NCBI GenBank assembly: GCA_001724275.1
Contig: MEDZ01000034.1
Location: 1-56,582, forward strand
From: Gemmatimonadetes bacterium SCN 70-22
Lineage (GTDB): Bacteria > Gemmatimonadota > Gemmatimonadetes > Gemmatimonadales > Gemmatimonadaceae
Reading direction: 5' to 3'
Length of the DNA stretch: 56,582 nt
The notes below the pieces were generated by a model that was not told where the DNA came from, did no database searches, and saw nothing but the letters and a program-made list of their open reading frames with translations. Positions within the stretch are counted from its first letter, which is position 1. Each line of letters begins with the position of its first letter. This document shows, in pieces, positions 21,424 through 22,395 of the stretch. The position numbers were made by a program, and so were the translations under genes.

Positions 21424-21725
21424 GGGATCCTCCGGAATGACACGATGTGGGTGCACCCATGAATGGCACGCCCCGTGCCCCACGCGGACCCGTGGAATCA
21501 CAACGACTTAGCGTGAGGGGTGTCTCCCCTGCGGACAGTCGGGTGTCCACTCGGGGTCACGATGCGGGGAATGACGCGGGGAAGGACGCGGGGACAGACG
21601 CGGGGACGGACGCGGGGACGGACGCGGGGACGGACGCGGGCGGGCGACGTCACCGGCCGAGACGCTCCGTTGCGCGCCACCTGCACCGCCCGCCAACTTC
21701 CAGACTCACCTGCCAGGACACCAAC
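21424..21725. other. Divergent intergenic region with minisatellite
   Basis: About 300 bp between the lipoprotein and the peroxiredoxin. It contains the 12-bp array at 21561-21644. I cannot place a confident promoter for either gene; no RNA gene is seen. Confidence 0.5.
21561..21644. repeat. 12-bp tandem repeat, 7 units
   Basis: Unit gacgcggggacg; three perfect adjacent copies with variants on both sides. It ends 81 bp before the peroxiredoxin ATG. The frame of that gene is open through it, but the signal peptide at 21726 marks the start. Confidence 0.9.
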
Positions 21726-22313
21726 ATGCGATCCACTTCGATCGGGGGCGTGACGATGGCGGCCGCCATCGCGCTCGCCTTGGGGGGACCGTCGGTCGCC
21801 GGCGCGCAGCAGGCGGAGACGGGGCCGAAGGTGGGGGACGTCGCCCCCGACTTCACCCTCCGCGGCGTCACGAAGGACGGCCCCATGCGCGACGCGATCA
21901 CGCTCTCGAAGTACCGGGGCAACACCGTCGTCCTCGCCTTCTTCTTCAAGGCGCGGACAAAGGGTTGAACGGTCCAGATGGAGGCGTACCGTGATCAGTA
22001 CGCCACGACCTTCAATGGGGGGAAGCACGTCACCCTCATCGGGATCAGCGTCGATCCCGACACCACGCTCCAGTCGTGGATGAAGGACGCGAACTTCCCC
22101 TTCATCTTCGCCAGCGATGCCGACGGTGCGGTGGGAACGCTGTACGGGGCCTACCTCCCCGCGAACAAGACCGACAATCGCTCGCTGTACGTGATCGCCC
22201 CCGACGGCCGCATCGCGTACAAGGCGCAGCCGTTCCGCCAGATGTCGGCCGAGGCCTATACCGAGCTCGCGGCCGCCATCGACAAGCTGTCGCCCGAAGC
22301 GGGGAGGCGCTGA
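21726..22313 (+). CDS. Exported peroxiredoxin, predicted selenoprotein (in-frame TGA at codon 81)
   Basis: One frame runs from ATG 21726 to TGA 22311-22313 (195 residues) interrupted once by TGA at 21966-21968, codon 81. The N-terminus is a signal peptide (cleavage AGA-Q), then the AhpC/TSA start GDVAPDFTLRGVTKDG and VVLAFFFKARTKG. The TGA falls exactly where peroxiredoxins have the peroxidatic Cys of T-x-x-C, followed by TVQMEAYRDQY, as in BCP-like proteins. Downstream, VTLIGISVDPDTTL, FPFIFASDADGAVGTLYGAY and SLYVIAPDGRIAYK complete the fold. No Cys occurs anywhere else, so a 1-Sec mechanism is implied. A hairpin at 21983-22004 fits a bacterial SECIS. A nonsense mutation or sequence error at this one codon is the alternative. 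Confidence 0.8.
21966..21968 (+). other. Predicted selenocysteine codon (TGA)
   Basis: In-frame TGA at codon 81 of the peroxiredoxin, in the context TKG-U-TVQM. The family has the redox-active Cys at this position. The gene stays open and family-like on both sides of it. Confidence 0.75.
21983..22004 (+). promoter_or_regulatory. Candidate bacterial SECIS hairpin
   Basis: A 7-bp perfect stem GGCGTAC/GTACGCC closes an 8-nt loop CGTGATCA. There are 21 nt between the TGA and the loop, and G is the second loop base. From memory this meets the bacterial SECIS model (apical loop about 16-37 nt after UGA, G in the first two loop positions). An alternative weaker stem ACGGT/ACCGT (21969-21991) overlaps it. 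Confidence 0.55.
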
Positions 22314-22360: not shown

Positions 22361-22395
22361 ACCGCCCCGGCGCCCGTGCCGGGGCGGTCTGCGTT
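22361..22395 (+). terminator. Intrinsic terminator after the peroxiredoxin
   Basis: An 11-bp perfect stem ACCGCCCCGGC/GCCGGGGCGGT with a 6-nt loop, followed by CTGCGTTT. It separates the selenoprotein gene from the kinase. Confidence 0.75.

Follow-up and report, generated by a model that had tools for sequence, protein, structure and literature searches.

The window analyzed here is a stretch of 56,582 nucleotides from contig MEDZ01000034.1 of Gemmatimonadetes bacterium SCN 70-22. On its forward strand lies a frame of 195 residues, which starts with ATG at 21726, ends with its true stop, a TGA, at 22311–22313, and is interrupted internally by a single stop, the TGA at codon 81. As the original prediction had it, this codon occupies the peroxidatic site of a peroxiredoxin (TKG-U-T) and is the only interruption; frame, positions and motif all held on rechecking. 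The features of the locus, together with one gene found elsewhere in the source genome, are as follows.

21726..22313, + strand: predicted selenoprotein peroxiredoxin gene, 195 residues, Sec at codon 81 (frame, PF00578 match, 193 homologues)
21726..21809, + strand: predicted Sec-type signal peptide of about 28 residues (...SVAGAQ), cleavage site judged by eye (hydrophobic N-terminal segment)
21945..21968, + strand: active-site motif F-x-x-x-T-x-x-U (F74, T78, U81), with Phe instead of the usual Pro (homologue alignment)
21966..21968, + strand: in-frame TGA, predicted Sec, peroxidatic residue U81 (frame and homologue codons)
21983..22004, + strand: bSECIS-type hairpin, 7-bp stem GGCGTAC/GTACGCC, 8-nt loop CGTGATCA (folding, conservation, covariation)
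22179..22181, + strand: codon of the invariant Arg152 (NRSLYVI), equivalent to the catalytic Arg of peroxiredoxins (38-sequence alignment)
22361..22388, + strand: perfect 11-bp inverted repeat 3′ of the gene, a possible terminator with no clear T-run (repeat search)
L001:1640-2680, − strand: selD of the source genome (G000, contig C53) (profile match and in-frame TGA)

A tandem array of 6.4 copies of the 12-bp unit GCGGGGACGGAC also lies at 21564–21640, some 90 bp 5′ of the start codon. A search of the window against Rfam returned zero matches.

Read through the TGA, the protein matches the PF00578 profile at 91.7 bits, against a curated cut-off of 26 bits. The match covers residues 36–165 and thus spans both sides of the codon, which bears out the claim that family features flank it. 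The 195-residue product contains no Cys anywhere, leaving the TGA codon as its only possible redox center and agreeing with the proposed 1-Sec form. In principle, translation of the same stretch could give two products, a peptide of the first 80 residues and a C-terminal domain started anew at ATG 21978, which lies three codons past the TGA and opens a 111-amino acid ORF (21978–22313). However, the Met in question, M85, belongs to a conserved helix (TVQMEAYRDQ), each half would form only part of a peroxiredoxin fold and would lack the active-site residue, and the Cys homologues are made as one chain. Two separate products are therefore highly improbable.

Homologues are widespread in the phylum. 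A search through 179 genomes from the source organism's family found relatives in 170, and a phylum sample of 395 genomes gave strong relatives in 307, across several families. Those relatives that public records name belong to the Gemmatimonadota, Gemmatimonadaceae and Longimicrobiales among them, which agrees with the Gemmatimonadota-like host deduced earlier. Of 193 distinct homologues from Gemmatimonadota, 142 have TGA as the catalytic codon, 47 have TGC and 4 have TGT, with no other codon found; the column thus holds Sec or Cys in every sequence, and truncation at this point is seen in none. The placement of the TGA is accordingly beyond chance, as had been argued from the single gene. 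No further Cys occurs in the mature domain of 139 of the 142 Sec forms, and the catalytic Cys is the only one in all 51 Cys forms; by their sequences, these peroxiredoxins are 1-Sec or 1-Cys enzymes.

A few individual sequences deserve mention. In the matches from three genomes (G137, G140 and G148; loci L108, L111 and L120) two TGA codons were counted, the second of which is probably the normal end stop. The source genome also has a Cys paralogue (L047; G000 C9:14317-14877) with the motif TPGCT and a further Cys in an apparent lipoprotein-type signal (LAGC). A TAG was suspected at the active site of this paralogue, and was ruled out since the catalytic codon there is TGC.

The hairpin directly downstream of the TGA provides further evidence. 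Published rules for bSECIS elements (PMC13188914) specify a loop of 3–9 nt, a stem of 4–16 bp, a G within the first two loop positions, a location 16–37 nt after the UGA and a minimum free energy of −7.5 kcal/mol or lower. In the window, the loop starts 21 nt past the UGA and has G at its second position, and the fold has an energy of −10.3 kcal/mol for the hairpin and −13.7 kcal/mol for 40 nt, all within these limits. Among the homologues, 84% of Sec genes conform to the rules compared to 14% of their synonymous recodings, while the corresponding values for Cys genes are 8% and 3%.

In codons +6 to +11 (GCG TAC CGT GAT CAG TAC), synonymous sites are 96–100% fixed, and this is seen only in Sec forms; in Cys forms the same codons are variable, and some sites favor other codons, such as CGC and GAC. 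The inner pairs of the hairpin are 99–100% paired. The basal pair shows compensatory G-C, C-G and T-A combinations and is unpaired in 22% of distinct sequences. The hairpin core is unique in the 4.7 Mb source genome, even with two mismatches tolerated. The 68-nt region folded whole is no more stable than its dinucleotide shuffles (z −0.17), and the 40-nt hairpin core does not differ significantly from shuffles (z −1.55). Because folding energy is not significant against shuffles, the SECIS assignment is based on conservation and not on energy.

The source genome, assembled into 84 contigs totaling 4.70 Mb and 99.98% complete by the tool's figure, encodes a full Sec-decoding system. All four components that the original prediction had asked for are present: tRNA-Sec (65.6 bits; called SeC with anticodon tca by ARAGORN), selA (528 bits), selB (313 bits) and selD (390 bits). 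The selD gene adjoins tRNA-Sec and has an in-frame TGA of its own (CAG-U-AAK), and its product is predicted from this to be a second selenoprotein of the genome; Sec-containing SelD is an established selenoprotein family (PMC2398784).

The distribution of this machinery follows that of the Sec forms. These counts are for the better-scoring relatives, with some weaker matches of the family search left out. Within the family, 88 of the 90 Sec-form genomes analyzed have selA and/or tRNA-Sec; of the remaining pair, G081 has no match to either but possesses selB, which brings the total to 89/90. None of selA, tRNA-Sec and selB was found in the last (G125), which is 78% complete, and this gap is probably due to assembly incompleteness. 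Both selA and tRNA-Sec are missing from 29 of the 32 Cys-only genomes analyzed in the family, and the single-contig genomes of this kind (G043, G044, G045 and G150) have no match to selA, tRNA-Sec or selB. The Cys-only genomes G027, G028 and G093 do have Sec machinery, as would be expected if other selenoproteins are present there.

These observations bear on two other explanations of the TGA. It might be a nonsense mutation that has created a pseudogene, or a miscalled TGC or TGT; annotation alone shows a broken frame, and draft genomes are numerous among the assemblies. However, 142 related genes, drawn from many independent assemblies, have TGA at precisely this codon, the frames are intact on both sides of it, the downstream hairpin is frozen and the Sec forms follow the presence of the Sec machinery, which together render mutation or error a practically negligible prospect. 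Alternatively, UGA might be reassigned to an ordinary amino acid throughout the genome, or a near-cognate tRNA might decode it with no selenium involved, given that a read-through frame by itself cannot reveal which residue is inserted. Against this, the terminator of the peroxiredoxin gene is itself TGA, only this one of the 14 PF00578 matches in the source genome has an in-frame stop, all non-TGA homologues have Cys at the column, and a full Sec system is present, while genomes without one nearly all use TGC or TGT. Decoding of this kind is thus very unlikely. The gene would instead encode a selenoprotein peroxiredoxin of the 1-Sec, TxxU type with a signal peptide, in which UGA81 is decoded as Sec, a reading to which we assign a probability of about 0.95 on the basis of sequence. 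The original observation was confirmed in all details that could be checked. The sequence shows the frame, the machinery, the hairpin, the conservation and a predicted fold, whereas Sec incorporation, export, peroxidase activity and the reductant of the enzyme are inferred.

Among 38 aligned sequences, T78 is nearly invariant, and residue 81 and R152 are invariant; T78 and R152 would complete the active site of a peroxiredoxin. An AlphaFold2 model of the protein has a mean pLDDT of 87, and the PDB entry that it matches best is 1xxu, a structure of the M. tuberculosis 1-Cys peroxiredoxin AhpE. AhpE is the closest solved fold (1xxu and 4x0x; TM-score by target 0.84–0.85, 31% identity) and likewise has a single peroxidatic residue, but it contains Cys and the active-site Pro, where the window's protein has Sec and Phe and, in addition, a signal peptide. 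There is also a resemblance to the thiol peroxidase BCP/PrxQ in the G-C-T that follows the active-site Thr (TxGCT in Cys homologues), although the window's protein differs in having no resolving Cys and in having Sec and a signal peptide. Modeling thus predicts a BCP/AhpE-like thioredoxin fold. The predicted signal peptide is upheld by the homologues, 192 of 193 of which keep a hydrophobic N-terminal segment, and export is therefore likely.

It has been established that TxxU Prx is a bacterial selenoprotein family (PMC2398784, PMC5029168, PMC13188914), so the premise that bacterial selenoprotein peroxiredoxins are already known is sound. Like this family (PF00578), the window's gene has a TxxU site, UGA at the peroxidatic residue and a bSECIS hairpin directly downstream. 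It differs in that its protein has a signal peptide, zero Cys and Phe in place of the Pro of PxxxTxxU, and in that its form is phylum-wide in Gemmatimonadota. The best NCBIfam match, the thioredoxin-dependent peroxiredoxin PrxU (NF040737), belongs to the same superfamily; membership in this equivalog was rejected, the score of 58.3 bits being below the cut-off of 270. No report on point about Gemmatimonadota selenoproteins was found in the open-access literature searched, and some of the genes may already be named in public annotation. As far as that literature shows, a TxxU Prx selenoprotein is newly placed in Gemmatimonadota.

It is conceivable that the protein is a thioredoxin-fold Sec enzyme whose main activity is not that of a peroxidase but, for example, that of a thiol:disulfide oxidoreductase, since the same Pfam family includes UxxC oxidoreductase Prx-like selenoproteins (PMC13188914, PMC2398784) and the active-site Pro is absent. 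However, the protein has neither a UxxC nor a CxxU pair and contains zero Cys, the TxxU motif and the invariant Arg are typical of peroxiredoxins, and AhpE is the best structural match, which makes such an activity unlikely. As a peroxiredoxin, the protein would be made and would act as follows. The hairpin just past UGA81 would guide SelB and Sec-tRNA-Sec, leading to the insertion of Sec. In the exported enzyme, the Sec81 selenolate, positioned by Thr78 and Arg152, would attack peroxide in the cell envelope. Since the chain is free of Cys, the reduction of the selenenic acid of Sec81 would then depend on an external thiol partner.

The homologues also contain information about the history of Sec and Cys in the phylum. 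A single clade for the Cys forms is rejected (p-AU 1.6e-5), and at least 9–10 Sec/Cys changes are needed on the tree. A model that allows only Cys-to-Sec changes lies 34–42 log units below the free model, compared to 1–9 log units for a model with a Sec root that allows only Sec-to-Cys changes. Two Cys forms branch close to the base, which leaves the state of the root uncertain. Many Sec forms share, whole or in part, the gene order acnA-dgk-Prx-glxK-nitrilase-agmatine deiminase, and so do Cys forms from genomes that have no Sec machinery (for example, G043, G044, G138 and G150). As the Cys forms are not one clade and some occupy the same locus, repeated replacement of Sec by Cys is implied. 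For the single local case tested, nesting of a Cys trio (G135, G138 and G150) within the Sec forms of its genus is not significant alone (p-AU 0.37). In one genus (g7; L303, L304 and L310), Cys and Sec copies stand in tandem, with the same neighbors as in the window. Because these copies lie side by side, a number of Cys forms may have arisen not by codon change but as the survivors of tandem paralogues.

The active site may have changed along with the catalytic residue. PxxxTxxU has been described as highly conserved (PMC13188914), and the missing Pro is typical of PF00578 active sites without defining the family. At this position, seven residues before the catalytic one, Pro occurs in 51/51 Cys forms but in only 38 of the 142 Sec forms, the other 104 having F, Y, I, V or S. 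About three independent pairs show Pro and Cys changing together and none opposes this, a consistent direction with too few pairs for significance. The association is thus a lead only, despite the strong counts, because few independent events inform it.

A 2006 survey counted zero Sec-to-Cys events in Prx (Table 1 of PMC1794560), and a 2026 review describes such events as rare (PMC13188914). The history suggested for Gemmatimonadota, to which we give an even chance, is the reverse of this published Prx trend: the Sec form would be old, and Cys would have taken the place of Sec on several occasions, repeatedly along with loss of the entire decoding machinery and sometimes at the same locus, and the near-universal Pro would be free to become Phe, Tyr, Ile, Val or Ser only while the catalytic residue is Sec.

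The Sec peroxiredoxin is a phylum-wide trait of Gemmatimonadota, and annotation under the ordinary bacterial code breaks such genes at the UGA. The family provides a great many natural exchanges between Sec and Cys, some of them at a single orthologous locus, in genomes with and without the machinery. These exchanges allow tests of the cost and benefit of Sec, of SECIS decay and of correlated change in the active site (Pro versus Phe/Tyr).
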